53,831 nucleotides of DNA, taken from NCBI GenBank assembly GCA_016235425.1, contig JACRLC010000029.1:1-53831 (forward strand). The letters are read 5' to 3'. Source of the stretch: Chloroflexota bacterium. GTDB taxonomy: Bacteria; Chloroflexota; Anaerolineae; Anaerolineales; Villigracilaceae. The position numbers were made by a program, and so were the translations under genes. Shown piece after piece: positions 505-27,266 of the stretch (its first letter is position 1; each line of letters starts with the position of its first letter). Below the pieces are notes generated by a model that had not been told where the DNA came from, did not search any database, and saw only the letters and a list, made by a program, of their open reading frames with translations.

Positions 505-3500
505 TTATGGCGTGTACGATTTCCCAGCGTTATGCGATGTTCCATGGCAGGCGATAAAACAAGTTCCAGTAGTACCATTCCATACCCAGGCTGACTGGCT
601 GGTATAACCGGCGTTGATGGTGACTGTTGCGGTGTCGAAATTGATTAGGCGCTGTTGCTCGCTTCCATGCGAGTCGTGGCAGACGTAACACGGGGCGCTT
701 TCGCCGTTCGGTCCCCCGCTATGGAGTTCGTGCAGGTTCATCGTGCCGTTGTGAAAACGCGTATTTACAGATTCCATATTGCTTGTCGGCGCATACGTGG
801 TCTTTTTATGACAGCGGAAACAGATTTCACCGTCGCCCAGCAAGTTAACACGATTTGAGTCCACGGTCGAGTATTCGTTTGCGCCGAACAAAATGTGAAG
901 GCGCGGCGAACCGTGCGGGCCATAACCATTCGTGGGTTGGCTGGCGTTGGTATGACAGTCGGAACAATAAACCATGCTGTTCGCAGACCAGCTGGGCACG
1001 AAGCCTCCCGCGGGGATTACTGTATTGCGTCCCTGCGCGATGACCGGGTGGAAACTGGCATGGTTGGGATTGAATTCCTGGGCAAGGTCGCGGCTGTCGA
1101 GAATCTGGCTGGCGTTTACGCTGGTTAGTTTACGCAAACCATTGGCGGCAATGACCGCGCCGTTCCAGCCATCCGGCTGGTAAGTGGGTAATGTGGTAAA
1201 GGTTGAATGGCACTTGAAGCATACCTGAAACTCGCGCTGGGCCTGATCCATCCACACGAATGCACTGGGCGCGCCGGGCCCCGTCCAGGTGGGGTTGACA
1301 CCGCTCGTGTAGTACATCTCCGGCTGGATCATCGGCGGGATGGTTGTGCCCGCAACCGAGTCACGCGTAGACTCATGCGGCTCGTGGCAATCCTCGCACT
1401 CGATGTGGCGGTTTAGGCCGCTGAAAGACACGCCACTGTTCTGTCCCACGCGATGAACGCCATTGGTTCCAGCTGCATCGTGTTTAAAGATGCTCGTAGC
1501 GGTGTTGGTATATAGCGTAAAAGCTGGCTGGATGTTTGTGCCCGTTCCTCCCGCCGTGTGACAAGTGAAACAGACCTGTTCTTCGGGCCATGTCCAGCGC
1601 AGAACAATACCTGTGGCGGTATGCGAACGATGGCACCCGGCGCAGTCATCCGACGTGGCGGTATAGTCCACATGCGGGTCGGACACGCCTGGAATAGCGG
1701 TTGCGGCGCGGGCGGGCAGGGTCGGTGTGGGTTGAGGCGGGAATGCTGTGGGCGTGGGGATTACATCTGAAACGATGAGCCGCGCTTCGTCCAGATAGAT
1801 CGTGATGGTATCCGTCCCGCCGTTCACCTGCGTGCCGCGTAATCTAAATCTGGCATTGTTGGCTTGTGCAGGCGTTGTGTAGTTGGTCGTGACATTGTAG
1901 GAGAGCGTGGTTAATACGGTGGGCGGTGGGGAGCCTGTCTGAAAACGGGCGATGCGCGTCCAGTTGGCGCCGTTATTATTTGACACTTCCAGATCAATGC
2001 GATCATCCACCCAGCCGGTAATATAAAAGCGATACTCCAGCGTGGCGGAAACAACACTGGTCAGGGTTGTATCCTGCACCGCCGTATATGTCCAGTTGCC
2101 GGTGCCGAAGTTGCCGGCGCAGGTTGCCACGGCGTTGTTGAAGGCCAGGTCAATGCTATTGGCCGCATTGGCGAGGGTGCAGTTTGCCACCGATTGCGCC
2201 GTTCCCCACAGATTCTGTGTGGCCAACGCCCATACGCCGCTAGAATCGGAGTCGGGCGTCGGCGAAGGTCCCAGTGTCGGCCAGACGACCGGCGGCATGC
2301 CTGTCTCGGTGAACAACAAACCATCATAGGCGTGAACAAGACCGAAGCCGTAGTACGGATCCCAGCCGCTCGCACCTAGATCAAATGCGGTGTTGACCAG
2401 CGCGTTACGAATAAAAATCGAGTTGGAGAACTGCGATTGACCGGCCAGCAAGGCGGCCACGCCGGAAACCTCAGCCGAGGAGACAGACGTGCCGGACATC
2501 TGGCTGTAATTACCGCCTAGCCATGTTGAATAAATATCTATGCCTGGGGCAGTGACAGTTGTGGCACTGCCGAATGAGGAGAAAGTCGTCCATGTCAGGC
2601 CGTTGTCCACTGCGCTGGCGGAAATCACGCCCGGATACGCGGCTGGGTAAACAGGCGCATCCATGCCTGTATTACCGGCCGCGGCCACCACGATCACGCC
2701 GCGTCCAAGCGCGTAATTGATGGCATCCTGCAAGACCTGGCTGTGGCCTGCTCCGCCGAAGCTGAGGTTGATGATCCGCGCCCCCTGATCGGCGGCATAA
2801 ATGATCGCATCCGCGACCTGGGCGTATGTGCCAAAGCCGCTGGCATCCAGCGCCTTGACCGTCATGATGCGCGCGTTCGGCGCGATCCCGGCCACACCTG
2901 CGCCGTTGTCGCTCACCGCGGCAATAACCCCGGCCAGGTGCGTGCCGTGACCGTGATCGTCTTGCACATCATTATTGCCTGCCGCCATGTTCCAACCCCA
3001 CACATCGTCCACATAACCGTTGCTGTCGTCGTCCACACCGCTCAGGCCGGATGCCTCGGCAGCATTCTGCCAGAGGTTGGCGGAAAGATCGGGGTGCGAA
3101 ACATCCACACCCGTGTCAATGACGGCCACAGTCACTTCCTGCGCGCTGGTGATCAGATCCCAAGCCATCGGCACTTGAATGAAAGCAAGGCTGCTCTGTT
3201 GCGAAAAACTAGGGTCATTGGGAATGTAAGCAGCGCGCGCTATATAGTTTGGTTCAGCGGATGCAACGTCGGGGTGATCCTGCAATTCGGCCAGAGCCTG
3301 TTGCAGGTCCGCAGGAGCGACTTCGATGAGGACCGCGTTTAACTCAGGCAGAGACTCGTTGGGCTTGACCTGAACCGGTACCGAAAGTAAATCCACAATC
3401 GCTTCAATATCGGACCCTGAACCTGGTCCCACTTGGACGATGATCTCCCCCGCTGCATGTGGACTTTGCACGTCAACTGGAACGGAAGCGGGAGTGGGCG

Positions 3501-5298
3501 AGGAGGTTTGTGTGGCGAGGGGCAGTGTTGCCGTTGGCATGGCCGTTTCAGTCGCAATGAGTGTTGCGGTGGCAGTATCGTTTACAGGTAATGTGACCGT
3601 CGCGGTGGGAGTCCAGCTCTCGGTGGGCGTTTCGGTCATCAGGCTGGCCGCCGTAGGTGTGGCTTCGGCAGGAATGCCAGCCGTGGGAGAAACTTCCAAA
3701 GTGGGCGTGGCAGTTTCGATCGCGGCAGATGTCGCAGTAGCAGTGTGGCTAACAATCTGGGTGGCGGTAGCGGTATTGCTTACAGGCAGAGTGGTCGTCG
3801 CGGTGAGCGTCCAGATTTCAGCGGGTGTTTCGGCCGCTATGCTGGTCGCTGTGGGTGTGGTTTCGGCAGGAATGCCAACGGTGGGAGAAACTTCCAAAGC
3901 GGGCGTGGCCGTTTCGGTCGGGGTGAGCGTAGCTTCCGTCGCGGTGGCGGTGTCGCCTACAGGCAGAGTGGCAGTCGCGGTGGGAGTCCAGACCTCAGCG
4001 GGCGTTTCGGTTGGGAGACTTGTTGATGTAGGTGGCAGGCTGGTGGCTGTGGGAGCAGGCGGCGGAGCGACGGAGACGCTCACATCGCTGATGGATTCAA
4101 CATAGTCCACAGCGTCTTCACAGCCAGGTTCCAGCCGCTGTGAGACATTTTTCCAAGTCAGTTTTTCGCCTGCCAGCCGAGTCGCACCCAGCGCGGAGTA
4201 TAAGCACCCGGGCCCGGCGTGGTAGTTGACCAGTGTGAAGCGCCACATATCCTCGCTGCTAACGCCAAAAGTGGCGGTATACCAGCCAGTGGCATTACGG
4301 ATAACCTGATGCACCTGCGCGTTGTTTGCGCGCAGTATCTCGGCGAAGACCAGCACACTGGACTCGGCTTTTGGAATATCAATGCCGTACGCGCAGGTTG
4401 GACAATCCGCGCGTACGAGGTTGATGGCCGCGCCGCGCAGGAGGGCGCGCTGGTCGGCGGGCAGGCTGATGTATTCTTTTTTGCAATTCTTTTTTTCCAG
4501 CACGGTTGGGCAGAACTTGTTGTAGAAGGACGCGTTCCAGGCCAGGAGCGCATCCGCGCCGAGTTCGTTCAACTGGCCGAGTCCATACTCGCCGAAATCC
4601 CAGGAATTGTTTTGCGAGGCGGCGGGCCAGAATTGTGTTTCCTGTGTGAAAACACCTTTCAACAAGTAGGGCGGTACGCCTGTCTCCTGGGCGGCGTTAA
4701 AAATGTTCGTGTCGAACCGGTTCTGCCAGAGGTAAACCTGATAACGAGCCTTCTCCAATCCGCAGGTGGAGGCGGCTCCGTTGGTCAGCAGGCCAATGTC
4801 AGGGCATTCGTTGATATCAACGATGCGATTAGCAATCAGATGACCAGCCAGAAAAGCAAGCGGACGGTTGGAGGCTAGTTCCTCCACACTATCGGTGCGT
4901 GAAAGCCAGTGGACGCTTCGGTCGGGCGCGGGAGTGAGAATGGGGGATGAGATGGGAGTCTCAAAAATGGGGGGAAATGTCGAGGATGCGGCAGCAGTTA
5001 TCAGGTCCTGCGTGGAAGCGAGGTTGAGCGTAAGCCCTGTGCAAGACACACCGCTTTCATCCAGGCAGGGAGGCGTGTTCTCCCATTCAACGCGCAGGTC
5101 ATGCCCGCATTGTGCCTCGATCTCGTCAGCAGTCGGGGAGCCTTCGTGCGTCACGTCAATGGCGCATAGCAATGCTTTATCTTCCCGGCGCGCCAGCCAC
5201 CACGTAAAGACTGTTGCGGCGCCGGCCGGCGCGGTGTAGATGCCAGAGGCAATGATCGCGAAAACTGCAATCAACGAAAACAGGCGTGTTCGCTTCAT
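505..5298 (-). CDS. Secreted lytic-transglycosylase-like / subtilisin / octahaem cytochrome fusion protein
   Basis: A 1,597-residue exported protein of an unusual architecture. Residues 1-27 are a signal peptide. About 190-390 resemble a lytic transglycosylase (QETQFWP with the likely catalytic Glu, then GLGQL near 241). About 405-610 is a Thr/Pro linker with three imperfect repeats of roughly 60 residues starting ETP(A/T)E.WT. A propeptide-like segment precedes a peptidase S8 domain with D728 (VIDTGV), H784 (HGTHLAG), N876 (AAAGNT) and S938 (SGTSVSS), so the triad looks intact. After a beta-sandwich-like stretch, residues about 1219-1597 carry seven CxxCH motifs and a terminal CX3CH (CFIACH), opening with a CAGCHRSHTA-type motif shared with neighbouring cytochromes. 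The ATG overlaps the stop of the preceding gene (ATGA). Domain calls for the protease and haems are firm; the transglycosylase call is likely. Confidence 0.88.
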   Translation of the reverse strand: MKRTRLFSLIAVFAIIASGIYTAPAGAATVFTWWLARREDKALLCAIDVTHEGSPTADEIEAQCGHDLRVEWENTPPCLDESGVSCTGLTLNLASTQDLITAAASSTFPPIFETPISSPILTPAPDRSVHWLSRTDSVEELASNRPLAFLAGHLIANRIVDINECPDIGLLTNGAASTCGLEKARYQVYLWQNRFDTNIFNAAQETGVPPYLLKGVFTQETQFWPAASQNNSWDFGEYGLGQLNELGADALLAWNASFYNKFCPTVLEKKNCKKEYISLPADQRALLRGAAINLVRADCPTCAYGIDIPKAESSVLVFAEILRANNAQVHQVIRNATGWYTATFGVSSEDMWRFTLVNYHAGPGCLYSALGATRLAGEKLTWKNVSQRLEPGCEDAVDYVESISDVSVSVAPPPAPTATSLPPTSTSLPTETPAEVWTPTATATLPVGDTATATEATLTPTETATPALEVSPTVGIPAETTPTATSIAAETPAEIWTLTATTTLPVSNTATATQIVSHTATATSAAIETATPTLEVSPTAGIPAEATPTAASLMTETPTESWTPTATVTLPVNDTATATLIATETAMPTATLPLATQTSSPTPASVPVDVQSPHAAGEIIVQVGPGSGSDIEAIVDLLSVPVQVKPNESLPELNAVLIEVAPADLQQALAELQDHPDVASAEPNYIARAAYIPNDPSFSQQSSLAFIQVPMAWDLITSAQEVTVAVIDTGVDVSHPDLSANLWQNAAEASGLSGVDDDSNGYVDDVWGWNMAAGNNDVQDDHGHGTHLAGVIAAVSDNGAGVAGIAPNARIMTVKALDASGFGTYAQVADAIIYAADQGARIINLSFGGAGHSQVLQDAINYALGRGVIVVAAAGNTGMDAPVYPAAYPGVISASAVDNGLTWTTFSSFGSATTVTAPGIDIYSTWLGGNYSQMSGTSVSSAEVSGVAALLAGQSQFSNSIFIRNALVNTAFDLGASGWDPYYGFGLVHAYDGLLFTETGMPPVVWPTLGPSPTPDSDSSGVWALATQNLWGTAQSVANCTLANAANSIDLAFNNAVATCAGNFGTGNWTYTAVQDTTLTSVVSATLEYRFYITGWVDDRIDLEVSNNNGANWTRIARFQTGSPPPTVLTTLSYNVTTNYTTPAQANNARFRLRGTQVNGGTDTITIYLDEARLIVSDVIPTPTAFPPQPTPTLPARAATAIPGVSDPHVDYTATSDDCAGCHRSHTATGIVLRWTWPEEQVCFTCHTAGGTGTNIQPAFTLYTNTATSIFKHDAAGTNGVHRVGQNSGVSFSGLNRHIECEDCHEPHESTRDSVAGTTIPPMIQPEMYYTSGVNPTWTGPGAPSAFVWMDQAQREFQVCFKCHSTFTTLPTYQPDGWNGAVIAANGLRKLTSVNASQILDSRDLAQEFNPNHASFHPVIAQGRNTVIPAGGFVPSWSANSMVYCSDCHTNASQPTNGYGPHGSPRLHILFGANEYSTVDSNRVNLLGDGEICFRCHKKTTYAPTSNMESVNTRFHNGTMNLHELHSGGPNGESAPCYVCHDSHGSEQQRLINFDTATVTINAGYTSQSAWVWNGTTGTCFIACHGTSHNAGKSYTP

Positions 5299-5651
5299 TC
5301 GCCGCCTTCATGAATGGCTTGGTGACAGTCGGCGCACGGCGAGTTCGGAGCAACGGCCGGATGGTCGAACGGGAGGCCTTGCTGATCGGGCGCGATGCTT
5401 GGGACTGCGGGCGGCACCGGTGAGGGCATGATGTTTATCTCTCCGCTAGCGGAGGCGGTGGGGGATTCGCTTAGCCAAAAGGTGGCAATGGCCTGTTGCC
5501 CGCGGGTTGGCGTCGGCCACGTGACCTCGGTGGCGCGCAGGCTCGTTTCTTCCTCGAAAATGGCGAGGGCGAGACTGGCAGCAACGACTGCCAGCCCGAT
5601 GATGGCCGCGATGAGAAGACCCGCAACCAGTTTGAACGGAGGGCGTCTCAT
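5295..5651 (-). CDS. Small membrane-anchored monohaem cytochrome c
   Basis: A 118-residue protein with an N-terminal transmembrane helix (LVAGLLIAAIIGLAVVAASL), a Pro/Ser-rich spacer and one haem motif, CADCHQAIHEGG, at the extreme C-terminus. I chose the ATG at 5651 because it overlaps the stop of the upstream cytochrome gene as ATGA; the frame is open seven codons further. Its own stop overlaps the ATG of the giant fusion gene in the same way, so the three genes are translationally coupled. A single tethered haem between a multihaem protein and a surface protease-cytochrome could pass electrons; that role is inference. Confidence 0.75.
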   Translation of the reverse strand: MRRPPFKLVAGLLIAAIIGLAVVAASLALAIFEEETSLRATEVTWPTPTRGQQAIATFWLSESPTASASGEINIMPSPVPPAVPSIAPDQQGLPFDHPAVAPNSPCADCHQAIHEGGE

Positions 5652-6697
5652 TTCTTGTGGCAGTCCTCGCATACGCCGCGGTTGTCCACTCGCAGAAGGG
5701 AACTGTCATTGGCTGGTGCGACGTTTGCGGCCAGGCCGGTTGCGGCGACGTTCGTACCGTGGGCAAAATGGCAGCTCACGCAGAAGAGCTGATCGTCCGC
5801 GCTTGCGCCATTGCCGCTGGGATCCTCGAGCGGCAGGGCGGTCGTCAACGCGCCCAACTGGATGTTCATCCTGTGGCGATAGCGCGTGACGAGGCCCTGG
5901 CCGTCTTCTGCATTGAATGGATTGATGGATGGGGAATCGTGGTAAGTGGCATGACAGCCGGTGCACCAGTCACCCAGACCGAGCCGGTATTTCGGGTTGG
6001 TATAGTTTGGCACGTAACCGGCCTGGTTCGGGTTCTGGCCGCCAAGCTCATTGGATGTGACCAACACATAACCAGGCGGGTCGGTCTGCTGAGTGTAGGG
6101 TGGGTGCAGCCTCTGCTGGAGGACACGATAGTTACGTCCGCCGTGCGGATCATGGCAACTGGTGCAGGTGAGAGGCATCGTGACGTTCTGTCCGCGGCCC
6201 GGATAGGTGGGCCAGGCATTTGGGCTGATGCCCCAGGTTGGCGCGCCTGGCCAGACGAGGCCTGAATCGGCGTTGTGACAGCCGGCGCAGTCGTATGTAC
6301 TGACCCAGTTCACACCACTGCCCCACGCATTTTGGGATGTGCCATTGACACTATGTGTCGAAGTTACCGGCAGGCCCTGATAATTCACGAAGCCGCCAGC
6401 CAATAGATTTCCACCGCCAACGCCTTCATACATACCGTCGGTCACGTTCGTGGCTGCACCGGCGGCTGAACTGCCGTGACAGGTGAAACAGAGGTTAGGC
6501 ACAGCGTCCACCAACAATTTCGGTGCGGCGGCTGTATGGGCGCGATGACATCCCGCGCAAGCATCTGTGCTGGCCGTGTAACCGCCGTGAGGCCCGGCGT
6601 TAGCGCGGGCGTTTGTAACAGCCAGCGCCAGCAACAGCAACCCGAGGCAGGCGGGAAACGCAAGTTTTAGAACGGAGCGTATCTTCAAAGCCTTCAT
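5648..6697 (-). CDS. Heptahaem cytochrome c, doubled CXXCH motif family
   Basis: A 349-residue exported cytochrome with an N-terminal signal (LGLLLLALAVTNARA) followed by GPHGGYTASTDACAGCHRAHTA, the signature start shared with two paralogues at 8402 and 9554 and with the tail of the 505-5298 fusion. It has seven CxxCH motifs: CAGCH, CFTCH, CAGCH, CTSCH, CTGCH, CVSCH and CEDCH, the last three residues from the end. Several are followed by an extra His (CHRAH, CHDPH, CHATYH, CHFAH) that can serve as the second axial ligand. It lies in an ATGA-coupled run with the monohaem protein and the fusion. The electron partner is unknown. Confidence 0.88.
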   Translation of the reverse strand: MKALKIRSVLKLAFPACLGLLLLALAVTNARANAGPHGGYTASTDACAGCHRAHTAAAPKLLVDAVPNLCFTCHGSSAAGAATNVTDGMYEGVGGGNLLAGGFVNYQGLPVTSTHSVNGTSQNAWGSGVNWVSTYDCAGCHNADSGLVWPGAPTWGISPNAWPTYPGRGQNVTMPLTCTSCHDPHGGRNYRVLQQRLHPPYTQQTDPPGYVLVTSNELGGQNPNQAGYVPNYTNPKYRLGLGDWCTGCHATYHDSPSINPFNAEDGQGLVTRYRHRMNIQLGALTTALPLEDPSGNGASADDQLFCVSCHFAHGTNVAATGLAANVAPANDSSLLRVDNRGVCEDCHKK

Positions 6698-6721: not shown

Positions 6722-7294
6722 TTAGGAATTTGCGGACGGCAGGTGGAAGCCGGCCAACTGGTCGTCAAGTTCCCTGGCCTTTTCCCGCATCACGCGGACC
6801 GTGGACTGGTCCGCGTTTGCATACACAGCATTCATCTGACAAATCAATTCGGCAGACAACAACTGGAGAGTACGCGCCCGGCCCTGCAATCCCGCGATCA
6901 TTTCGGTAGCGGCTTCATCCAATTCCTTCAGCTCATCGCCTCTCCGAAAGCGGATGGTCTGCGCGAGGTTCCCCTGCCCAATCTCCTTGAGGATGCGGCA
7001 TAGACGATAGACCGGGCCTGCGATGCGGTGAGTGAAGAACACGGCCAGGATGACGCTGATGGACAACCCAAGCAGGTTGATGCCGATCAAGGTAGGGATC
7101 AATATGTCCAGCATATTGCGAATGGACAGGTGCGCTTTTAAGTAGGAGGCGGTCAAGTCGCGGTTGGCGATCATGGCGAAAACGGCGCCCGCAATCAGGA
7201 GCAGGATGGCGAAGATCAATTCGATCCCGGCCAGCAGGCGTGGTTGGGAGCTTTTCCAAAGAAAAAATTGCTTGCGATAATGGGATGCTTTCAT
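6722..7294 (-). CDS. Two-TM HAMP-domain membrane protein
   Basis: A 190-residue protein with two predicted transmembrane helices (about 22-44 and 62-86) followed by a HAMP-like linker (IAGPVYRLCRILKEIGQGNLAQTIRFRRGDELKELDEAA) and a helical C-terminus. It has no kinase, cyclase or methyl-accepting output domain, so it looks like a stand-alone HAMP signalling or scaffolding module. Its ATG overlaps the stop of the haem lipoprotein gene upstream (ATGA at 7291-7294), suggesting the two are made together and may pair as haem sensor and membrane transducer; this is inference. Confidence 0.75.
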   Translation of the reverse strand: MKASHYRKQFFLWKSSQPRLLAGIELIFAILLLIAGAVFAMIANRDLTASYLKAHLSIRNMLDILIPTLIGINLLGLSISVILAVFFTHRIAGPVYRLCRILKEIGQGNLAQTIRFRRGDELKELDEAATEMIAGLQGRARTLQLLSAELICQMNAVYANADQSTVRVMREKARELDDQLAGFHLPSANS

Positions 7295-7794
7295 GGGTTG
7301 AGGAACTCCTCATGGCACGACACACATAACTCGCCATCCGGGCGAAGGCTGAGCAGAAACGGATAGGGCGCGGTGTGGCTCAAGTGGCAGGTACTGGTGC
7401 AGGTCATCATCTGGCCGGTATTGGGGTCTATCACACCCTCGCCCACCGGATGAGTATTGCCGAGGCTGTCGAGAAGGTGACAGCCATAGCAGAGGTCAAT
7501 GTCGCTTTGCGCGTATAAACGCTGTGTCTCCGGCTGGTGGAATATGACATGGCAATCCAGGCACTTCTCCTGCTGGTATGGCTCGTGAATATAGCGCCCA
7601 TCGTTCGATCTCAGATTGGCGTGACAGCCGCTTTCAAAACAAGGGCTTGCTGAAATATTGGATGAGGCGGCCTGCGGCACGGCGGTTAAGGCCGGAGCCG
7701 GGTGGCCTTCCAAGTCAGCAGGCAAACAGCCCGCCAACAACAGGGAGAGGCCAAAGAGCATAACCAGGGCAGGGCTTCGGAAGCGGAGGCGCAT
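7291..7794 (-). CDS. Haem c lipoprotein with five haem motifs
   Basis: I place the start at the ATG at 7794, which gives a lipoprotein signal (LFGLSLLLAGC) ahead of a Pro-rich spacer; an upstream GTG at 7848 is open but has no better ribosome site. The mature protein carries five haem-type motifs: CFESGCH (CX4CH), CLDCH, CYGCH, CTSTCH (CX3CH) and CVSCH. The two wide motifs recall those of NapC/NrfH and tetrahaem c3-type proteins. About 167 residues. It sits between a SRPBCC gene and the HAMP protein, coupled to the latter. Confidence 0.78.
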   Translation of the reverse strand: MRLRFRSPALVMLFGLSLLLAGCLPADLEGHPAPALTAVPQAASSNISASPCFESGCHANLRSNDGRYIHEPYQQEKCLDCHVIFHQPETQRLYAQSDIDLCYGCHLLDSLGNTHPVGEGVIDPNTGQMMTCTSTCHLSHTAPYPFLLSLRPDGELCVSCHEEFLNP

Positions 7795-7890
7795 GGGGTG
7801 ATTCGACGATATGTGCAGGATGATGCCGCTGGTAAAGGGCCGCCGCACAGGAAGGGACCTGCCGCGGCGGCTCTCAACACCTCCAGCCGC

Positions 7891-8304
7891 TCAGTTCATT
7901 CCCAGGCGTTTCTTGAAGGCTTCCAGGATTGCGTTCGTGTTGGCTTCGATGGCCTTGGCCGCCAACTCATTGATGCCGGGGATAGACAGGGTCAATTCGA
8001 AATCGGTCATGTATTTGATCTTCGTCATCTTTCCATCCACCGCGAATTCCCACTTACCATCCAACTGCTTGAAAGGCCCTTCCACAAGGTTGAAGCTGAT
8101 GGATTTGTTCTGCTCATAGATCGCCTTCGAGGTCCACGAAACGGTCGCGGGCCCCATGTTCACAGTCATCTTGACCAAATCGCCATTCACTTCGACCTTC
8201 TTGATGCCGGGCAGGAATTCGGGGTACTTGGTTACGTCGGCAACCACTTCGTAGATCTTCTCCACGGGGTATTCGACTTCACCGGATTTTTCAACGTGAG
8301 GCAT
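7891..8304 (-). CDS. SRPBCC / START-fold (COQ10-like cyclase) protein
   Basis: A 137-residue cytosolic protein with the SRPBCC hot-dog cavity pattern: YPVEKIYEVVADVTKYPEFLPGIKKVEV at the N-terminus, a central beta sheet, and the long C-terminal helix ELAAKAIEANTNAILEAFKKRL. This resembles the COQ10/RatA polyketide-cyclase branch, which binds hydrophobic ligands such as quinones or lipids. A strong AAAGGAG site precedes the ATG. In a cytochrome locus a quinone-handling role would make sense, but nothing in the sequence fixes the ligand. Confidence 0.78.
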   Translation of the reverse strand: MPHVEKSGEVEYPVEKIYEVVADVTKYPEFLPGIKKVEVNGDLVKMTVNMGPATVSWTSKAIYEQNKSISFNLVEGPFKQLDGKWEFAVDGKMTKIKYMTDFELTLSIPGINELAAKAIEANTNAILEAFKKRLGMN

Positions 8305-8401: not shown

Positions 8402-9427
8402 TTACGGAAAAGCGATCCCCCTGTCGACGTGACACTGCCAGCAGACGCCGCGATTGTCAATTCTCAGAAGGGAACTGCGATTGTTGCCGCCAGGTGCGTT
8501 GTTGCCGTCCGGCCATGGGATGGAGCCTGAATTACTCCCCATCCGCACGCCCGTGCCATGAGCCATATGGCAGGAAACGCACCCCGGATAATAGCCAACG
8601 AAGCCGGGATGACAGCTCATGCAGTTGGTCGTGGAAGTGTCGTTCGTTACGTGGCGGAAGGCAAAAATCGCATCCCCGGAATCGGTGGAACCGGGCGCGC
8701 CGGGATAGGGGGCGTGATAGCGGGTGTGACACTGGGCGCACCAACTCGTCATTGCGGCGTTGATCATTGTGCCCCCGACGCTGGACCCATGGTCGCCAAA
8801 GTAATCTCCATTCGCGCCGGTATAGTAGGTTTTTGCGGCCTCATCGGGCAAGTCTACTGTAGAGTCTTGTGAGCCGAAGAGCGGTTCGTTGCCGGCATTG
8901 CTGCCTTTGAGGATGCGGTATGTAGCCGTATTTCCCGCGCCAGCCCGGCCGTGCGGGTTATGGCAGTTCGTGCAGGTCAGCGAGATGCCGGCCGCGCCGG
9001 CATCCGGGACGGCGTTGATCGCGCCGTAGCCCCAGACGGTGTTCGAACCGCCAGTGACCATGTGGCTGGAGGTGACCGGGAGCACCTGGACAGTACTGCC
9101 AGACTCCCCTTCCGCCGGGTTCATGGTCACATTGACGAAACCACCCGCGCGCAGGGACCGATTGACGCTTTTATCCAGCCCATCCTCAACATTGGTGTTG
9201 GCGCCAGTGGCCGAAGAGCCATGGCAGGAAATACACAAGGCATAAGAGGTGGACTGAACCAACAAGGCTGGCCCAACCGCAGTATGGGCGCGATGACAGC
9301 TGGCGCAGGCATCCGTAGCAGCGGTATACCCACCGTGGGGACCGTTGTCCGCAAGAACAGGCGAAGCGGTCATCAAGACCAGGGCAAAGGCAATTGCGCC
9401 GATGATAGGAAACAGCGTTCGTTTCAC
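8402..9427 (-). CDS. Heptahaem cytochrome c, doubled CXXCH motif family
   Basis: I start this at the GTG at 9427, which has a GGGAG site eight bases upstream; the open frame runs a further twelve codons to a TTG. About 341 residues: signal peptide (FPIIGAIAFALVLMTASPVLA), then DNGPHGGYTAATDACASCHRAHTA. Haem motifs are CASCH, CISCH, CTNCH, CAQCH, CMSCH, CVSCH and CWQCH (seven). Paralogue of the products at 5648 and 9554, with the same spacing of the first two haems and the same terminal RIDNRGVCWQCH block. Likely a secreted or wall-associated electron carrier. Confidence 0.87.
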   Translation of the reverse strand: MKRTLFPIIGAIAFALVLMTASPVLADNGPHGGYTAATDACASCHRAHTAVGPALLVQSTSYALCISCHGSSATGANTNVEDGLDKSVNRSLRAGGFVNVTMNPAEGESGSTVQVLPVTSSHMVTGGSNTVWGYGAINAVPDAGAAGISLTCTNCHNPHGRAGAGNTATYRILKGSNAGNEPLFGSQDSTVDLPDEAAKTYYTGANGDYFGDHGSSVGGTMINAAMTSWCAQCHTRYHAPYPGAPGSTDSGDAIFAFRHVTNDTSTTNCMSCHPGFVGYYPGCVSCHMAHGTGVRMGSNSGSIPWPDGNNAPGGNNRSSLLRIDNRGVCWQCHVDRGIAFP

Positions 9428-9553
9428 GGCTTTCTCCCGGTTGTACCAGAAGGGTAGGCCCAAAAGAGCGGCTCACCCCTCATGGTACAATCCGCCTGGG
9501 TAGTGGGAGTGAGGGGAGGCGGCCAACCAAAACACCCTCACCCCTCTACTCTC

Positions 9554-10507
9554 TTATTTCTGGTGGCAGACTTCGCAGACAGCCCGGTTATCCAGGCGCA
9601 GAAGAGCGCTATCCGCAACTGTTGTGTTGCCGGGTTGTGTGCCGGAACCGGTCGGACCGCCATTAGCAAATCCAGCCATCGTCGCTGAAGAGCCATGAGG
9701 GAGGTGGCAAGTCTGGCAGGCTACTGTGTTGTTTGTCCCGGTCTCAGCGAGCGGCAGGGTTAACCCACCCATTCCCACAGTCTCAGGATTCGCATTCGCA
9801 CCATAGGTATAGGCCATACCGATACGGTGAGTGTAGGTCGAGCCATCCAGCGTGCTTCCCTGTCCGGGGTTGGTCTTGTGATATGCGCCGTGGCAGGCCG
9901 CGCAGATATTGCTTTGGCCCGTGCTCCATTGTTCCGTGTCGTAATCCTTGGCCGCGCCTTCATCAACTTGTGCAACTGCAACAGCGGCTCCGTTGACAGT
10001 TGCCTTGAGAATTCGATAGTTGGGTGAGCCATGCGGGTCATGACAGGAGGCGCAAGAGAAGGTGGCATCAGTGATGGCAACCTGCACACCGCGGTTGGTC
10101 GCGCCGTTACCCCAAGCCAGGTTGGTGTTGCCCGCGCCGGTCATCTCGTGCTTGGACGTGGTGGCGACAGTCTTGTAGAAGTCAAAGCCACCGGCAAGCA
10201 GAGGCGCGTTATCGGTAGTGTTAGCAGTGCCGGTTGTGCTGGCGCTGCGGGTGGACAGGAAGTACCCATCCTGAACATCAGTGTCTGCGCCAGTGCCGGT
10301 AGTGCCGTGACAGGACATGCACAGGGCATAGGTGCTGGTCTCCACCAACAGTTTCGGGCCTGTGGCGGTGTGTGCCCGGTGGCATCCCGCGCAGGCATCT
10401 GTCGTGGCGGTGTAACCGCCGTGGGGACCGCCGTTCGCAGAAGCCGTCCCGGCAATTACCAGAACGAGAACAATTGCGACCAGCAGTACGAAAAAGTATT
10501 TTCTCAT
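9554..10507 (-). CDS. Hexahaem cytochrome c, doubled CXXCH motif family
   Basis: Start set at the ATG at 10507, about ten bases after an AAGGAGA site; upstream in-frame codons lack one. About 317 residues: signal (YFFVLLVAIVLVLVIAGTASA), then GGPHGGYTATTDACAGCHRAHTA. Six haem motifs: CAGCH, CMSCH, CASCH, CAACH, CQTCH and CEVCH, ending LRLDNRAVCEVCHQK. It lacks the extra mid-protein motif of its two paralogues. Gly/Thr/Asn-rich spacers suggest an extracellular, protease-resistant fold. The three paralogues probably arose by tandem duplication. Confidence 0.87.
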   Translation of the reverse strand: MRKYFFVLLVAIVLVLVIAGTASANGGPHGGYTATTDACAGCHRAHTATGPKLLVETSTYALCMSCHGTTGTGADTDVQDGYFLSTRSASTTGTANTTDNAPLLAGGFDFYKTVATTSKHEMTGAGNTNLAWGNGATNRGVQVAITDATFSCASCHDPHGSPNYRILKATVNGAAVAVAQVDEGAAKDYDTEQWSTGQSNICAACHGAYHKTNPGQGSTLDGSTYTHRIGMAYTYGANANPETVGMGGLTLPLAETGTNNTVACQTCHLPHGSSATMAGFANGGPTGSGTQPGNTTVADSALLRLDNRAVCEVCHQK

Positions 10508-10587
10508 ATTAAACATTCTCCTTGTTTCTTGATTGATCTGCTTGTATTGGAAGTTGTTTTTTTCGTTCGATTGGCGTTCCTTTCTGC

Positions 10588-11817
10588 TCAATACGACCAG
10601 ACCTGTATGCGGTTGTTTTCCCGGTCCGCGATATACAGCCTGCCCGTATCGTCGAGCACGATATCATTGGGATAATTAAAGAGGCCGTCACCCAGTCCCC
10701 AATCGCCGAAAGCGTAAAGGAAAGCTGGTTCCTGGCCTGCGACATCGTAGACCTTGACGTTCTGGCCTACGGCATCAACTATGTGAAGGCGGTCGCGTTC
10801 ATCCATAAACGCGCCGCGCGGCAAACTGAGAGCGCCATCGCCTGTGCCGCGGCCAAACTCGGAGAGGAAGCTGCCCTCGGGGCTCCAGACAGAGATACGC
10901 CCATTATTTCCATCGGAAACGTAGACGCGGTTCTGGCTGTCCACGACCGCCACATTGGGATAAAGGAACTCCCCGGAGTTCTGGCCGGTTTTGCCAAAAC
11001 TGGACTGGGCGGGATGAAAGAACAACGTGGGCCAGACAAATATATCGCCCGCCGGGAATTTCCTGACGAGATGGTTGTCCCCAGCGACGTCCGTCAGCCA
11101 CAGATTGCCGGCCCGGTCAAAGCGGACCCCGAGCGGATCCCAGATTGGAACATTCGGCGCGGGCAGGATCTTCTCGTCTTCAGCCGTCTTCTGGTAATTG
11201 ACGGAGCCGGTAAATACGCTGTAATTGAACGTGGTACCGGAAGGCATCCCGCCAATTTGCGAGGCCACGTACGCGTTCAACGTCAGGTTGGGAGAAAGGA
11301 TCGTATCGAGGTAATTGCCATCCTTGTCGTAGACAAAGATCGCGTTCTGCAGGCGGTCTGTGACAAAGACGCGCCCGGTCAAATCCACCGCGACATAGAC
11401 CGGTGAGCGCTCACCCGCCGAGGTCTTGGGAGGAGCAAATGAGAAGAGCGGGTTGCCGCTGCGGTCGAATACCTTGACTAGGCGGTCGCCGCCGGTTTCG
11501 GCCACGTAGACCCGCCCGCCATCCGGCGAGATAGCCACGCCGACGGGCTGGTCCAACCCATAGATCGAGAACAGGTAATGCGGCGGATAGTTGAGGTTGA
11601 CCACCGGGAGAATTTCAGGCAACGGCGCGGGGCGCTGAATGTATCGGTAGAACAGCCCGCAGACACAACATAACAAAAGGAGCAGGAGCAGTAATAGAAG
11701 CAGGAGCGATTTGCGCCGGCGTTCCTCCTGCTTCAGTTCCTTCTCCCCGTCCATGGGTGCGGATTCAGCTGGGACCTTTGGCCCTTCTACATCTTCTTCT
11801 TTGTTTTTGCGGGTCAT
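10588..11817 (-). CDS. Membrane-anchored NHL-repeat beta-propeller protein
   Basis: A 409-residue protein: charged cytosolic N-terminus, a transmembrane helix with an unbroken run of twelve leucines, CCVCG, then an extracytoplasmic beta-propeller. NHL-type blades are clear (QPVGVAISPDGGRVYVAETGGDRLVKVFD, and the final GLFNYPNDIVLDDTGRLYIADRENNRIQVW), about six in all. Such propellers scaffold protein complexes, and NHL proteins often sit among multihaem cytochrome genes. The ribosome site AGGTGA overlaps the stop of the TPR gene (TAGGTGACTCATG), so the pair is co-translated. Confidence 0.85.
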   Translation of the reverse strand: MTRKNKEEDVEGPKVPAESAPMDGEKELKQEERRRKSLLLLLLLLLLLLCCVCGLFYRYIQRPAPLPEILPVVNLNYPPHYLFSIYGLDQPVGVAISPDGGRVYVAETGGDRLVKVFDRSGNPLFSFAPPKTSAGERSPVYVAVDLTGRVFVTDRLQNAIFVYDKDGNYLDTILSPNLTLNAYVASQIGGMPSGTTFNYSVFTGSVNYQKTAEDEKILPAPNVPIWDPLGVRFDRAGNLWLTDVAGDNHLVRKFPAGDIFVWPTLFFHPAQSSFGKTGQNSGEFLYPNVAVVDSQNRVYVSDGNNGRISVWSPEGSFLSEFGRGTGDGALSLPRGAFMDERDRLHIVDAVGQNVKVYDVAGQEPAFLYAFGDWGLGDGLFNYPNDIVLDDTGRLYIADRENNRIQVWSY

Positions 11818-11824
11818 GAGTCAC

Positions 11825-12784
11825 CTAGTTTTGCATCTTTGCTTCGACGCGGCCAAGAGCCTGCGATGCAGTATAGTTATTCGGGTCTATTTGCAGGGCG
11901 TGTTCCAGGTTTGCCTTTGCGGATTGCAGGTCGCCGAGTTCCTCGTACGTGAGGCCGAGGCCGATGAAAGCCGGCGCAAAATCGGACAATCCCTTTACAG
12001 CTTTCTCGAGTTCGACACGCGCGGTCTCGTAATCCTTCGTCGAGAACGCCACCATGCCGAGCGCATAATTCGCATGGTCGGCCTTGCCGAGCGCGGTGTA
12101 ACTGGTTACCATGCCTTGATACGCTTCGGTGTAATTCGGCACGAAACGCACAGCCTCCTCATAATTCTGGACGGCCTTCTCGTGCTGGTCTGTTTCTGCG
12201 TACGCGCTCCCGAGCAGATAAAAAGCATCAGCGTCGGTTGCATTGATCTGCACAGCCTGTAAAAGCGGCTCGATGGCGTCATCGAAACGCTCCATTGCAA
12301 TGTAACTCTTGCCCAGGAAATAAAGCGCGGTCTCCAGGCTGCTATCCATTCCGGCAGTGGGCAGTTTCGAGCGAATGGAGACGAACAGTTCCAGCGGACT
12401 GATGGCCTGATCCCAGTTCTCCAATGTGGCCTGCGAGACGCCGATCACAAACATGGCGCGCTCGTTATCTGGATAAGCATTCAGCACCTTCACGGCCTGT
12501 TCGATGGCATTCTCGTAGCGGTTATCCACCATGTAACTTTCCGCCAGAGCCAGCCGAAGCTCGATCTCATCCGGGTGCTGGCGGACAGCATCCTCCAGCT
12601 CCTGAATGGACTTTTCCACGGGCGACTGATCGCCGATATGGACATAACGATCCCAGTAGTAGTAGCTTCCGAAACTCACCGCCGATAGCAACAAGGCGAT
12701 CCCCATATACAATACAATTCGTTTCAGTTGATTGGCCTCGGAAAAGAAACCTTTAAAAACTTCCATCAGATTTGCGAACTTCAT
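11825..12784 (-). CDS. Membrane-anchored TPR protein
   Basis: A 319-residue protein with one N-terminal transmembrane helix (IVLYMGIALLLSAVSFGSYYYW) and then about six tetratricopeptide repeats from residue 60 to the end (for example AFYLLGSAYAETDQHEKAVQNYEEAVRFVP and AFIGLGLTYEELGDLQSAKANLEHALQIDP). TPR proteins of this type help assemble periplasmic complexes and are frequent in cytochrome c maturation loci (compare NrfG/CcmI). It lies directly between the decahaem gene at 12794 and the NHL protein; an assembly role for the multihaem proteins is a reasonable inference. GAGGTGA precedes the ATG. Confidence 0.83.
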   Translation of the reverse strand: MKFANLMEVFKGFFSEANQLKRIVLYMGIALLLSAVSFGSYYYWDRYVHIGDQSPVEKSIQELEDAVRQHPDEIELRLALAESYMVDNRYENAIEQAVKVLNAYPDNERAMFVIGVSQATLENWDQAISPLELFVSIRSKLPTAGMDSSLETALYFLGKSYIAMERFDDAIEPLLQAVQINATDADAFYLLGSAYAETDQHEKAVQNYEEAVRFVPNYTEAYQGMVTSYTALGKADHANYALGMVAFSTKDYETARVELEKAVKGLSDFAPAFIGLGLTYEELGDLQSAKANLEHALQIDPNNYTASQALGRVEAKMQN

Positions 12785-12793: not shown

Positions 12794-14353
12794 CTATGGA
12801 TTCTTGAAAATGCCGGCAGGGTGGCAGCGCGTGCAAAGGATATTCTGGTGGCAGGTATAGCAAACCTGATTACCCTGCTTCTTGTATTCTTCAGGATGCG
12901 TGAAAAGCATATCCTCCGGATGCGACAGATTGTGGCACGCGCCGTTGTTGCAAAAACCCTGGCCGTGACAATTCAAGCAGGTTTGTTTATCGGCCTCGCT
13001 GACATTGCGATGTTCAATCGTCCAGCGGAAATCGGAATGCGTGGATGGAATGCTGCCAACGATGACCGGCGCTTCCACCAAGAGGTCATTGCCGCGTCCA
13101 ACGATTGGCACGCTGTGACACAAATTACATTTAGAGCTGATGGCCTGTTCGCTCCCATCCTCGTCAATCGAAACGTGCTTCCCATCATGGCATCGGAAAC
13201 AGCCCATCGAAGGGGTGTGCCTTTCGTTATTCGGGTTGGTCTCCCAATTCAGTTTCATATCCGGAAAATTCGTTTCGGTATAGATGCGTTTGATTTGGGC
13301 AATCGCTTCAATCACCTTGGCGTCCAGGCCGGAGGAAATTGACGAGGATCCGCCGCCTGAAACAAGGCGGACGCCGTAGAGTTCAGCCAGCCCTTCGATA
13401 GCCGCGAACGCCTCCTCCTCCGACGGGTAGGCCTGCTTCAGTAATTCGACAGCTTTCAAGCGGATGGAGGGGATATCCCGCGAAATCAAACCGTCTTCAA
13501 TGGCCTGGTCAACCGCCTGTTCGGGGTAGGGGATGTAATGGGCCGTGCGGTTATGGCAATCAATACAGTCCATTCGCCGAACGCGCCCATCCTCCCAGGC
13601 CTTTTCGACAAAGGATGTACCGGACATGGTTGCCACGTCGCGCGAGAAAAAATCCTTGATCGTGCCGTCAGGTTGTTTAATGCCCACCCACAGCATCACC
13701 TGGCGCTGATCATCTGCGGCAATGTAATAGACTTCGCTGTTGATATGCCAGTGAATACCCTGACTAATGCCACTGCTTTCCTGCCACCCGCCCATCTTGA
13801 GGATCAACGTGCTTTGAACCGGGGTATTCGCCTTATCGTTATCGAAATGCAAAACCGTCTTTACGATATTGTCCTTGAACGTGGTCGGCGAATGACAGGT
13901 TTCGCAAGTCTCGCGCGCAGGGCGCAGGTTCATCACCGGGCTTTTGATTGGGCGGTGATAGGTATCCAGGGCCTCCGCAACCACCTGGCGCAACCCATCA
14001 ATTTTCGACTTTACGAAGAAATTAGCCCCAGGCCCGATATGACACTCGGCACAGCGCACATTGCCGTGCGCCGATGCCTGATAGCGCACCCATTGCGGGT
14101 CCATGGAATGACAGGTTGTTCCGCAGAACTCGGCGCTTTCGGTATATTCGTAAGTGTGTACACCGCCGATCAGGAAAGCCACTCCTGCGACAGCCAATGC
14201 GGCCAGTGCAAAAAAAGCTTTCAGACGCTGGCGAGGATCGCTCAAATCGAGGGAAATCTTTGGCCAGCGGAACCAGCCGCGGATCCCGCGTGAAGCGACG
14301 GGTGTTTCGGTCTGGCTTGCGTTAGTCCGTCGTCCCAAGTTCAACCATTTCAT
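12794..14353 (-). CDS. NapC/NrfH-like membrane-anchored decahaem cytochrome c
   Basis: A 519-residue protein. After a charged N-terminus there is one transmembrane helix (ALAALAVAGVAFLIGGVHTY), then FCGTTCHSM, the wide first haem motif followed by Met that typifies the NapC/NrfH/NirT quinol-oxidising family, and CAECHIGPGANFFVKSKIDG. Ten haem motifs: CGTTCH, CAECH, CETCH, CIDCH, CFRCH, CNLCH, CLNCH, CNNGACH (CX4CH), CYTCH and CTRCH. The C-terminal half goes well beyond a tetrahaem NapC. It overlaps the 3' end of the cytochrome b gene by 32 bases, which argues for a stoichiometric complex. GAGG precedes the ATG. Confidence 0.87.
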   Translation of the reverse strand: MKWLNLGRRTNASQTETPVASRGIRGWFRWPKISLDLSDPRQRLKAFFALAALAVAGVAFLIGGVHTYEYTESAEFCGTTCHSMDPQWVRYQASAHGNVRCAECHIGPGANFFVKSKIDGLRQVVAEALDTYHRPIKSPVMNLRPARETCETCHSPTTFKDNIVKTVLHFDNDKANTPVQSTLILKMGGWQESSGISQGIHWHINSEVYYIAADDQRQVMLWVGIKQPDGTIKDFFSRDVATMSGTSFVEKAWEDGRVRRMDCIDCHNRTAHYIPYPEQAVDQAIEDGLISRDIPSIRLKAVELLKQAYPSEEEAFAAIEGLAELYGVRLVSGGGSSSISSGLDAKVIEAIAQIKRIYTETNFPDMKLNWETNPNNERHTPSMGCFRCHDGKHVSIDEDGSEQAISSKCNLCHSVPIVGRGNDLLVEAPVIVGSIPSTHSDFRWTIEHRNVSEADKQTCLNCHGQGFCNNGACHNLSHPEDMLFTHPEEYKKQGNQVCYTCHQNILCTRCHPAGIFKNP

Positions 14354-15233
14354 GAGATACCTCTACTGTTTCCTTGGTTTCGTTTTGATGTTTGAGGCTG
14401 GCCTTATGGATAAATTCGACCGCCGCCAAAATTCGGCGATATTCCAAAGCATGGGTTTCCTGCATTTCCTCTTCTGTCATTACGCCGGTGAAAATGCTCT
14501 GGTTGTTCTCTTTGATGACGGTGTGATACATGTGCCAGGTGAGGATCGCAAGAACTGCGAGGATGGCTTCCCAGGCATGAATGGTGCGGGCGATGGGGAT
14601 GGCAATGCCGGGCAGAAGGGAGGTGATCAGCAGGGGAAACCATTGAAAAATGCCGGTGATGCCCATGATGACGGTCCCCCAAAGCAAAGCCCAGTATTCA
14701 ACTTTTTCCTCAATCGAAAATCGGTCGAAGGCCGGGCGTTCCTTTGCCATGTTCAGGTTGAATTTGAACATGCCCAGCAAGCCTTTCAAGTCGTCCCACT
14801 TGGGCCACATACTGCCAAGTTCGCGTTTGACGAACCACAGATAAATGATTCCCGAAAAATGATAGATCGCCTGGATTCCAAAAACGATTGCGGCAAGATG
14901 ATGGATGGTGCGAAGCGTTTCAATTCCGCCGAGCAGTATGTTGATGACCCAGCTCACAATGCCGATCCTGCTGAACGACTGCATCAGTCCGGTAAGTCCA
15001 AGCGTAGTGAAGGAACCGATCAGGATTTGATGTTCAAAACGCTCGCGCGCGTTGAAGCGAATGAAAACGCGTGTTCCGTCCGGTAAGATTTGCATTCGGC
15101 CGGCCAGTTCACGCGCCGTTTGCAGGCGACGCGCGCGCACCCTTGCCCGGATCTTCTCGACCTCGGCGTTTTCTTCGGCCTGGTGGCCGGCTTGTGATTT
15201 ATTGCTGGTCATTTTTTTCGAAATCGTACTCAT
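14322..15233 (-). CDS. Di-haem cytochrome b membrane subunit (b561 / FdnI-like)
   Basis: I place the start at the ATG at 15233, preceded by GGAGGAGG seven bases upstream, although the frame is open for 27 more codons inside the previous gene. About 303 residues. After a charged helical N-terminus there are four predicted membrane helices with well-placed histidines: FEHQILIGSF, IHHLAAIVFGIQAIYHFSG and ARTIHAWEAILAVLAILTWHMYHTVI. This pattern fits the formate-dehydrogenase-gamma / b561 superfamily that carries two b haems and reacts with quinone. It is flanked by and overlaps two decahaem cytochromes, recalling the CbcL-type cytochrome b plus multihaem c systems of Geobacter. Confidence 0.85.
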   Translation of the reverse strand: MSTISKKMTSNKSQAGHQAEENAEVEKIRARVRARRLQTARELAGRMQILPDGTRVFIRFNARERFEHQILIGSFTTLGLTGLMQSFSRIGIVSWVINILLGGIETLRTIHHLAAIVFGIQAIYHFSGIIYLWFVKRELGSMWPKWDDLKGLLGMFKFNLNMAKERPAFDRFSIEEKVEYWALLWGTVIMGITGIFQWFPLLITSLLPGIAIPIARTIHAWEAILAVLAILTWHMYHTVIKENNQSIFTGVMTEEEMQETHALEYRRILAAVEFIHKASLKHQNETKETVEVSHEMVELGTTD

Positions 15234-16554
15234 CCAGTTCCTCCTCCGCGATCGCCTTAAGGCGGGCGCGTTGATGTTGTTTTTCAGACCACCGTTTGCG
15301 GGCATCCAGCCCAATGTAGAGCGCGAAGCCGCCCAATGTTCCGGGAATAAGCAACTTGTAGGCTACGTTGACGCCATACAGAGCCGGTGTTTTTTCCCAG
15401 GTTGGCGTGTAGTGGCTGAGCCATGCCTGAGGGAAGCGGATGGATGCTTCTTCGTGGCACTGCTGGCAGGTCTTTTGCAGGTTATCCGGATAGACTGATG
15501 AAAGCGGATCGTCTGCAGGCCGGATGTTATGAACGCCATGGCAATCGAAGCAGACTGCCTTATTGCTGGAGAGTCCGCCTTTCTCACGGAAGAGATTGAC
15601 CGTCCGTCCATGGAAATCATTCAGGTAGCTGTTGAAGACATCCGTTGAAATTTCGTATTTTTCCATCAGCGCTTTATCGCCGTGACACTTTCCACAGATT
15701 ACAATGCTGTCTCCGCGGAAGGAAGGATCGCGCGGCCCGCGTACGCTATGGACTCCGTGACAGTCAATGCAACTAGGCACATCCGGGTTCGAATCGTGTT
15801 CCAAAGCGGCGCCATGGACACTGCTTTGGTAGGATGAATAAACGGCTTCATGGCAGGTCGAACAAGTCTGCGATATTTTGGAACGCGGTTTATTCGGCGG
15901 GGTGATCTCGTGACTGCCGTGGCAGTCAATACAAACAGGAGCCTGCGTATTCCCGCTGTTCAAAACTTTGACGTGGGCGCTGTCAATGGTGGAATCGAAT
16001 TCCTTTTCATGGCACGGACGGCAATACTCATTAATTGGCAGACTCATGGCGCGCTGGTCGGCATAGGGGAGGCTGACGCTCATGGCGACGAATTTTGTCT
16101 GCATATTCCCGCCCTGTTCATCATGGCACTCCATGCAATTTACCTGTTCGGTTTCATTATGTGGGTAACCCGTGATGTCGGGATGGCAGGCCACGCATTG
16201 CAATCCCTTTTGTCCATGCACGGATCTGGCGTAATGATCCTCAGAAACAAACAATGAGATTTCCTGGCGATTTTCAAAAACCCCAATGAATTCCGGGTTG
16301 GAATGACACATCAAACAATTGCTATGAGGATCCACATCCACTGGAACGGGCGGTGTTACTGCAACCGGAGTGCCTGCCTGTTCCACAGGAGTTGGCTCGA
16401 CCTGAAGCGGTGAAGGAGTGACCGTGGGTGTTGACAGCAAATCCGTTGAATACGAGCTGGCCTGGACTTTGGAGACGGTCCATCCTGACCAGGCTAGAAT
16501 ACCTAACAACCCAGCGCCAACTACTATCTTTCGAAGATTAAGGTGTACGATCAA
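15199..16554 (-). CDS. Decahaem cytochrome c with N- and C-terminal membrane anchors
   Basis: TTG start at 16554 with AAGGAGA seven bases upstream. 451 residues: signal-anchor, Pro/Thr spacer, then ten CxxCH motifs (CLMCH, CVACH, CMECH, CRPCH, CIDCH, CSTCH, CIDCH, CGKCH, CFDCH, CQQCH) spread over about residues 80-375, several followed by HGSH or HGVH second ligands. A C-terminal helix (LLIPGTLGGFALYIGL) and an acidic tail follow. The last codons contain the ribosome site of the cytochrome b gene, a 35-base overlap. First structural gene after the two-component system, so probably first in the operon. Confidence 0.87.
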   Translation of the reverse strand: MIVHLNLRKIVVGAGLLGILAWSGWTVSKVQASSYSTDLLSTPTVTPSPLQVEPTPVEQAGTPVAVTPPVPVDVDPHSNCLMCHSNPEFIGVFENRQEISLFVSEDHYARSVHGQKGLQCVACHPDITGYPHNETEQVNCMECHDEQGGNMQTKFVAMSVSLPYADQRAMSLPINEYCRPCHEKEFDSTIDSAHVKVLNSGNTQAPVCIDCHGSHEITPPNKPRSKISQTCSTCHEAVYSSYQSSVHGAALEHDSNPDVPSCIDCHGVHSVRGPRDPSFRGDSIVICGKCHGDKALMEKYEISTDVFNSYLNDFHGRTVNLFREKGGLSSNKAVCFDCHGVHNIRPADDPLSSVYPDNLQKTCQQCHEEASIRFPQAWLSHYTPTWEKTPALYGVNVAYKLLIPGTLGGFALYIGLDARKRWSEKQHQRARLKAIAEEELDEYDFEKNDQQ

Positions 16555-20646: not shown

Positions 20647-20762
20647 TCGATGATTGGACCTTGCCTGCCAACTATAGTATTGCTCTTTAGAAACTATGCC
20701 AATCGCGAAGATTCTGTAGCGCGACATTCATGTCGTCTTTGGGTTGCGACTTGAAAGTCGCA

Positions 20763-24076: not shown

Positions 24077-24087
24077 TTTTCAAATGT

Positions 24088-24145
24088 CACACCTGCACTT
24101 GCGTGCGGTGCAAGTGTTGCGAGGGCGGCGTTCTTCCGCCCTCGC
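24088..24145 (+). repeat. Interspersed palindrome plus terminator-like hairpin
   Basis: CACACCTGCACTTGCG-TGC-GGTGCAAGTG is a non-coding copy of the palindrome found in three coding sites. It runs into GCGAGGGCGG-CGTTCTT-CCGCCCTCGC (24119-24145), a ten-bp GC-rich stem between the oxidase and the next lipoprotein, which could attenuate read-through. Confidence 0.65.
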
Positions 24146-24176
24146 AATGACAAATAACCAAAGGAGAGAGTACAAA

Positions 24177-24569: not shown

Positions 24570-24576
24570 ATGGCGC

Positions 24577-27254: not shown

Positions 27255-27266
27255 TTTGGAGGATCC

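Follow-up and report, generated by a model that had tools for sequence, protein, structure and literature searches.

Little is understood of how large haem proteins pass through the wall in bacteria that have no outer membrane. A gene of a Chloroflexota bacterium (class Anaerolineae, family Villigracilaceae; contig JACRLC010000029.1 of assembly GCA_016235425.1, whose 53,831 nucleotides are called the window hereafter) raises the question of whether a single secreted protein can bring together a multihaem cytochrome and enzymes acting on the wall and on the protein itself. A first-pass annotation of the sequence had described the product as a secreted chain of 1,597 residues that joins a peptidoglycan-cutting-type domain, a subtilisin and an octahaem region. 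Here, we ask whether this architecture is genuine, where else it occurs, and which role it would suit.

Architecture of the fusion protein

The gene, at 505-5298 on the minus strand like the domains and the upstream cluster genes listed below, is a single open reading frame that starts with ATG and encodes 1,597 residues, and its frame and architecture are shared with proteins from other genomes of the family. From the N- to the C-terminus, the product comprises a signal peptide, an MltF-like lytic transglycosylase (SLT) domain, a Thr/Pro/Ala linker, a subtilase preceded by its prodomain and, behind a conserved domain, an octahaem tail. A domain search of the full protein, proposed by the first-pass annotation, recovered the S8 peptidase, its prodomain and multihaem models with Pfam; the SLT domain fell below the Pfam cut-off and is backed by its predicted fold. 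Since the hydropathy profile shows no strongly hydrophobic stretch other than the signal peptide (about residues 1-28, 5215-5298, with the cleavage site placed by eye), the protein has no obvious membrane anchor after signal cleavage. The following segment (residues 29-100, 4999-5214) contains a Cys and is common to the standalone SLT paralogues. The linker (residues 406-605, 3484-4083), delimited by its richness in Thr, Ala and Pro, consists of T, P, S and A to 70%. Its earlier description as a repeated Thr/Pro linker holds for the composition and for imperfect repeats that can be seen by eye in the protein, but not for the DNA, where TRF detects no repeats.

The SLT domain (residues 126-405, 4084-4923) was assigned from profiles, predicted fold and a conserved Glu. 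Its Pfam match is weak, with an E-value of 0.095 for the whole protein and of 0.0021 for the isolated domain (18.1 bits, for a cut-off of 21.3). Of 23 aligned members of this domain, 22 hit the SLT family with E-values of 0.1 or lower, the best one at 1.7e-7. The assignment, thin for a single sequence, becomes convincing when the 22 relatives are considered. A profile search of the PDB sequences gave weak results, the top row being an unrelated nuclease (E 0.48) and the MltF chains following at E 1.7-1.8. The AlphaFold model of the domain has a pLDDT of 88.7. Its first Foldseek matches are MltF, although the best E-value is merely 0.025, and VIA-align places it on Pseudomonas MltF with a Z-score of 11.6 (rmsd 3.2, 153 aligned), followed mostly by other lytic transglycosylases and goose-type lysozymes. 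The model supports a lysozyme-like fold. The candidate catalytic residue identified by alignment, Glu220 (4639-4641), is kept in all 31 SLT sequences, 11 fused and 20 standalone. Canonical SLT motifs are GLMQ-like and YNAG-like; those of the window are GLGQ and YHAGPG. The domain resembles the MltF-type lytic transglycosylases of the PDB in predicted fold, Glu, and GLGQ and YxAGPG motifs, and differs from them by its low identity in structural alignments (about 11-16%) and its fusion to a cytochrome.

The subtilase module starts with a prodomain of the Fervidolysin_NPro-like family PF22148 (residues 607-684, 3247-3480; Pfam E 2e-9), followed by a Peptidase S8 domain (residues 720-986, 2341-3141; E 8.4e-53) that scores 180 bits for a cut-off of 21.8. 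The triad D728 (3115-3117), H784 (2947-2949) and S938 (2485-2487) lies in DTG, HGTH and GTS motifs and is intact in 16 of 16 fused homologues, in line with the apparently active subtilisin reported before. The oxyanion Asn (N876 in the window) is kept in 14 of these 16; it is replaced by Asp in L056 and by Gly in L061, whose triads are otherwise intact.

The domain that separates the protease from the haem motifs (residues 1018-1180, 1759-2247) was recognised by its conservation among homologues; it matches no Pfam family and is probably a beta-sandwich. The octahaem domain (residues 1205-1597, 508-1686) contains seven CXXCH motifs (residues 1219, 1243, 1301, 1360, 1445, 1493 and 1537) and a terminal CXXXCH (residue 1580), i.e., the eight haem motifs counted previously, and several multihaem Pfam models match from residue 1215 on. 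The CXXXCH is kept in 33 of 36 tabulated octahaem proteins; L115 and L116 are without it, and L061 is cut there. Among 17 aligned tails, six non-motif His are invariant and one is nearly so, a conservation that would fit bis-His haems. The structure prediction that the first-pass annotation had suggested for this region, run with AlphaFold2 on the 17 sequences, produced no usable model (pLDDT 32). The octahaem sequence matched no PDB chain with phmmer, and none of the 34 PDB matches of the octahaem profile up to E 10 bears the OmcZ name. Some homologues (L062, L112, L113, L115-L119) are long forms with 15 CXXCH, of 1,734-2,266 residues when complete, which apparently carry an extra haem block ahead of the octahaem domain.

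Taken together, the reading frame, the Pfam matches, the predicted SLT fold and full-length copies in independent genomes show that a domain of the wall-cutting type, a protease and an eight-haem domain are indeed united in one secreted protein.

Distribution and evolution of the parts

We searched 152 genomes of the window's family and found the octahaem tail in 15 of them, for a total of 16 proteins. Five of these are cut by contig ends and were excluded from the architecture counts (L110, L114, L115, L116, L122); three have an S8 domain and two have neither enzyme visible. Among the 11 with a visible N-terminus, window included, 10 carry the triple fusion of SLT, S8 and cytochrome; the remaining one, L109, is an SLT-cytochrome protein that has no S8. 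The fusion sought in relatives is the usual form among these 11 proteins, and an assembly or frame error, the circumstance named beforehand as fatal to the claim, is contradicted by its recurrence in independent genomes. The long forms described above make up six of the 10 complete triple fusions, plus two of the cut proteins. One such counterpart is L009, from a groundwater Chloroflexi MAG, which is full-length, 63% identical, and embedded in the same gene order over the part compared. The window's genus is represented by one further genome, G001, in which the octahaem tail has no match.

In broader samples, the tail was found in 18 of 396 genomes of the class, 10 of 301 of the order, and 16 of 400 of the phylum. 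These figures hold for the sampled genomes, the three samples overlap, and the searches used E-value limits of 1e-15 for the class, 1e-25 for the family and the order, and, for the phylum, 1e-30 in a profile search. The class sample includes 18 proteins from outside the window's family; three have an S8 domain (L056, L057, L061) and none shows an SLT domain. When contig-end truncations (L053, L055, L059, L067) and a fragment with stops (L063) are set aside, 13 homologues with a complete N-terminus remain, and 10 of them have neither enzyme. A further family of the same order contributes two more proteins, the fragment L120 and L121, which has neither enzyme. The phylum loci from outside the class, which are short, showed no S8 or SLT. 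A comparison of two proteins with the PHROGs phage families returned 0 families. The constant part of the family is the octahaem tail. Nature provides this octahaem tail with both SLT and S8, with either enzyme alone, or with neither, so that a comparison of the variants can probe what wall cutting and proteolysis contribute to the placing of a cytochrome.

In the trees, the enzymatic parts of the fusions are set off from the sampled free copies. One branch (support 98/96) separates the fused SLT domains from 20 standalone SLTs, and another (100/98) splits the 16 fused S8 domains from 17 free ones, which are a sample rather than an exhaustive set; an earlier tree had likewise placed the fused S8 domains apart from nine free ones. 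The octahaem tree does not track architecture. More precisely, the window tail is sister to that of the enzyme-free L052 (99/99), with 68% identity, for 64% with L009, and the 1018-1180 domain is just 50% identical between the window and L052. The remaining parts are nearest L009, with 64% identity for SLT, 69% for S8 and 77% for the 1018-1180 domain. That the tail and the rest of the window protein have different closest relatives would be explained by an exchange of tails between proteins, or if L052 had lost its enzymes.

Could a separate protease replace the missing one in the protease-free versions? An S8 profile search found no S8 open reading frame in 12 loci with such versions, and five of the eight genomes concerned have no match to the window S8 at E 1e-30. 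The remaining three (G051, G097, G695) have S8 genes, all seven of which lie outside the fused group in the tree. Because of this, proteolysis is a feature of some lineages and not a general need of the octahaem cytochrome. Candidate prodomains were also considered in the enzyme-free L052, L068 and L069, where matches appeared with the low-complexity filter off; they were rejected, as they lie in Thr/Pro stretches, the S8/prodomain profile is empty there, and Pfam gives no prodomain in L052.

Gene cluster, cell envelope and the ccm operon

The fusion gene is the last of a cytochrome cluster whose members listed next lie upstream on the same strand. It overlaps by 4 bases a gene for a 125-residue protein with an N-terminal hydrophobic helix and one CXXCH (5295-5672). 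Further upstream are a heptahaem cytochrome of 349 residues (5648-6697), a multihaem protein of 185 residues with a lipoprotein-like start by eye (7291-7848), a second heptahaem cytochrome of 353 residues (8402-9463), a hexahaem cytochrome of 345 residues (9554-10591), an NHL-repeat protein of 409 residues with an N-terminal hydrophobic stretch by eye (10588-11817), and a TPR protein of 319 residues (11825-12784). The cluster continues with a NapC/NirT-type multihaem cytochrome of 519 residues and 8 CXXCH that is a candidate quinol oxidase (12794-14353), a cytochrome b561-like membrane protein of 330 residues (14322-15314), and a decahaem cytochrome of 451 residues with a C-terminal hydrophobic segment by eye (15199-16554). 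We compared 22 other loci with the window by BLAST (E 1e-8), leaving out short contigs, L061 and L064. The cluster, with its TPR, NHL and multihaem genes, is conserved among Chloroflexota. TPR and NHL genes both lie near the octahaem gene in 19 of the 22 loci; L109 has only NHL, and L056 and L117 have neither, their fetched stretches ending nearby. All 22 have a match to a hexa- or heptahaem cytochrome of the window, a type of match that the haem motifs alone facilitate. One hexahaem and one heptahaem neighbour had no clear relative in the PDB.

Some other genes of the window are worth mentioning. A CoxG/polyketide-cyclase-like gene lies inside the cytochrome cluster (7891-8304) and is 86% identical in L009. 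A histidine kinase with two CXXCH (17867-19339), possibly a haem-binding sensor, adjoins a response regulator. Near the cluster is another wall enzyme, an L,D-transpeptidase of the YkuD type (19546-20727). Beyond it, the stretch 22952-36630 encodes a multicopper oxidase and two heavy-metal P-type ATPases.

The envelope that such a cluster would have to cross can be approached from the gene content of the genome. We found five Mur-ligase-family matches, in a search that also matches two control archaea and is thus not by itself proof of peptidoglycan, and no Omp85 match, in a search that was positive in seven of 14 control genomes. Since Mur-ligase-family genes are present and Omp85 was not matched, the host is probably monoderm and peptidoglycan-making, its outer membrane being judged by Omp85 alone. 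This is in line with the description of Anaerolineales as devoid of a Gram-negative envelope (PMC7399161). With a NapC-type and further multihaem cytochromes in one cluster and no Omp85 match, the locus has the features of a monoderm extracellular electron transfer (EET) chain, and the cluster's probable role is to carry electrons across the cell wall to the outside.

The genome also encodes two cytochrome c assembly proteins, and the SLT family reappears among genes of this kind. A standalone paralogue of the N-terminal half of the fusion (L071 9401-11017, on contig C44 of the window genome) lies directly beside ccmC in a cytochrome c maturation operon with the genes ccmF, ccmH, redoxin, zinc ribbon, cytochrome c, ABC ATPase, ccmB, ccmC, SLT. 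The ccmC-SLT neighbourhood was seen in 17 of 20 genomes (L071-L084, L086-L088), hand-picked from those with SLT matches, with gene families assigned in the window genome; the exceptions are L085 and L089, which differ, and L090, a contig of 4.5 kb. Through this paralogue, the SLT family is connected with c-type cytochromes independently of the fusion. We found no account of a lytic transglycosylase linked with ccmC in the open-access literature. The SLT in the ccm operon hints that wall remodelling may be a general step for the secreted cytochromes of these bacteria.

Candidate roles and known systems

What would a cytochrome do with these domains? The first-pass annotation proposed that the protein opens the wall and releases its own cytochrome tail at the surface. 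The reading that we favour, and hold to be as likely as not, is that the protein is the terminal, secreted octahaem cytochrome of an EET chain, equipped with its own wall-acting and self-processing modules for a monoderm wall. It would be exported by Sec as an unfolded precursor, and the Ccm system, whose genes are present, would attach the haems outside the membrane. The SLT arm, with its conserved candidate catalytic residue and predicted fold, may then bind and nick peptidoglycan. Secreted subtilases with such prodomains usually cut themselves free; the subtilase would fold on its prodomain and cut itself off between about residues 685 and 710, which would split the SLT arm and the Thr/Pro spacer from the protease-cytochrome half. 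As the gene order suggests, the octahaem part would sit at the surface and be supplied with electrons by the NapC-type, hexa- and heptahaem cytochromes of the cluster. A second cut freeing the cytochrome tail may be imagined as a further, speculative step. What fits of the original proposal is its domain reading and the idea of a wall-acting, self-processing cytochrome at the surface, given the Glu invariant in the fused SLTs, the intact triads, the Mur-ligase-family genes without an Omp85 match, and the position at the end of the cluster; its weak part is the parallel with OmcZ and OzpA. Against this reading, both enzymes are optional, as L109 has no S8, and most of the complete homologues outside the window's family in the class sample, L052 among them, have neither. 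The oxyanion replacements in L056 and L061 and the sub-threshold Pfam score of the window SLT also count against it.

A more specific version, which we advance tentatively and hold to be less probable than its opposite, is that an SLT lineage of these monoderm bacteria is dedicated to c-type cytochromes, with one copy in the ccm operon and another in the terminal cytochrome, where it accompanies a subtilase lineage so far seen only in cytochrome fusions. If true, the cytochrome itself would bring the tools for wall opening and self-maturation, as a cis-acting answer to the problem of haem proteins crossing peptidoglycan.

The protein may instead be a static wall stalk, in which the SLT domain binds peptidoglycan, the linker and the S8 domain are spacers, and the chain stays intact with its octahaem part exposed. 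The homologues of other families, mostly made of linker, domain and octahaem tail, give this stalk the look of a general plan; yet a spacer need not keep a triad, a prodomain and an SLT Glu, and with the triad invariant in 16 of 16 fused copies and the Glu in 11 of 11 we regard a purely structural role as unlikely.

More doubtful still is an OmcZ/OzpA-like process in cis, in which the protease frees the octahaem tail and the tail polymerises into a conductive filament. The parallel with Geobacter had been drawn in the first-pass annotation and is real in some respects: an octahaem extracellular cytochrome is coupled there to a subtilisin-like protease, OzpA processes OmcZ, and omcZ-ozpA operons are reported to occur widely among Bacteria and Archaea (PMC9473688); OzpA has been described as required for assembly (PMC10874420). 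The Ig/beta domain of the OmcZ precursor may also be set beside the probable beta domain of the window protein. However, OmcZ has its haem part first and its Ig domains last, and OzpA, encoded by a separate gene, removes the C-terminal part (PMC9473688), whereas the window protein is one chain in the order protease, conserved domain, haem part, a layout that differs from that of OmcZ. The passages of PMC9473688 on OmcZ mention no SLT. We found no sequence link, the PDB searches giving no OmcZ-named match, and S8 is missing from 10 of the 13 proteins of other families in the class sample that have a complete N-terminus and from the 12 protease-free loci. The parallel is partial, and it is weakened by the fact that the protease is not a general need of the octahaem cytochrome here.

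The nearest functional picture is the Thermincola chain, where it has been proposed that electrons cross peptidoglycan by way of an inner-membrane, a periplasmic and a wall-embedded cytochrome (PMC7911101). ImdcA, PdcA and CwcA, together with OcwA, likewise form a multihaem chain from membrane to wall in the absence of an outer membrane; unlike for the window protein, the passages on this chain describe neither a wall-cutting nor a protease module. The large multihaem cytochromes of bioanode Anaerolineales come from the same phylum, lack porin-cytochrome complexes, and vary in haem number among homologues, like the 8- and 16-motif forms found here (PMC7399161). The words "protease", "peptidase" and "fused" occur 0 times in the main text of that paper. 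We found no description of a subtilase/multihaem cytochrome fusion in the open-access literature, from which its absence from print does not follow. The new element relative to the known chains is that the distal cytochrome bears wall-acting and proteolytic domains.

These domains might also belong to a feeding or attack enzyme, whose SLT domain and protease digest neighbours or necromass while the cytochrome disposes of the electrons. A secreted lysozyme-fold domain with a protease would suit lysis, but the multihaem cytochrome genes alongside in 22 of 22 loci and the SLT paralogue in the ccm operon make such a role improbable to a high degree. Finally, even though the gene ends 505 bases from the contig start, an artefact joining separate genes has next to no chance of being the explanation because 10 of the 11 N-terminally visible proteins of the family carry the triple fusion, and the independent L009 has the same 4-base overlap with its preceding monohaem gene, provided that it starts at the ATG at L009:9391.
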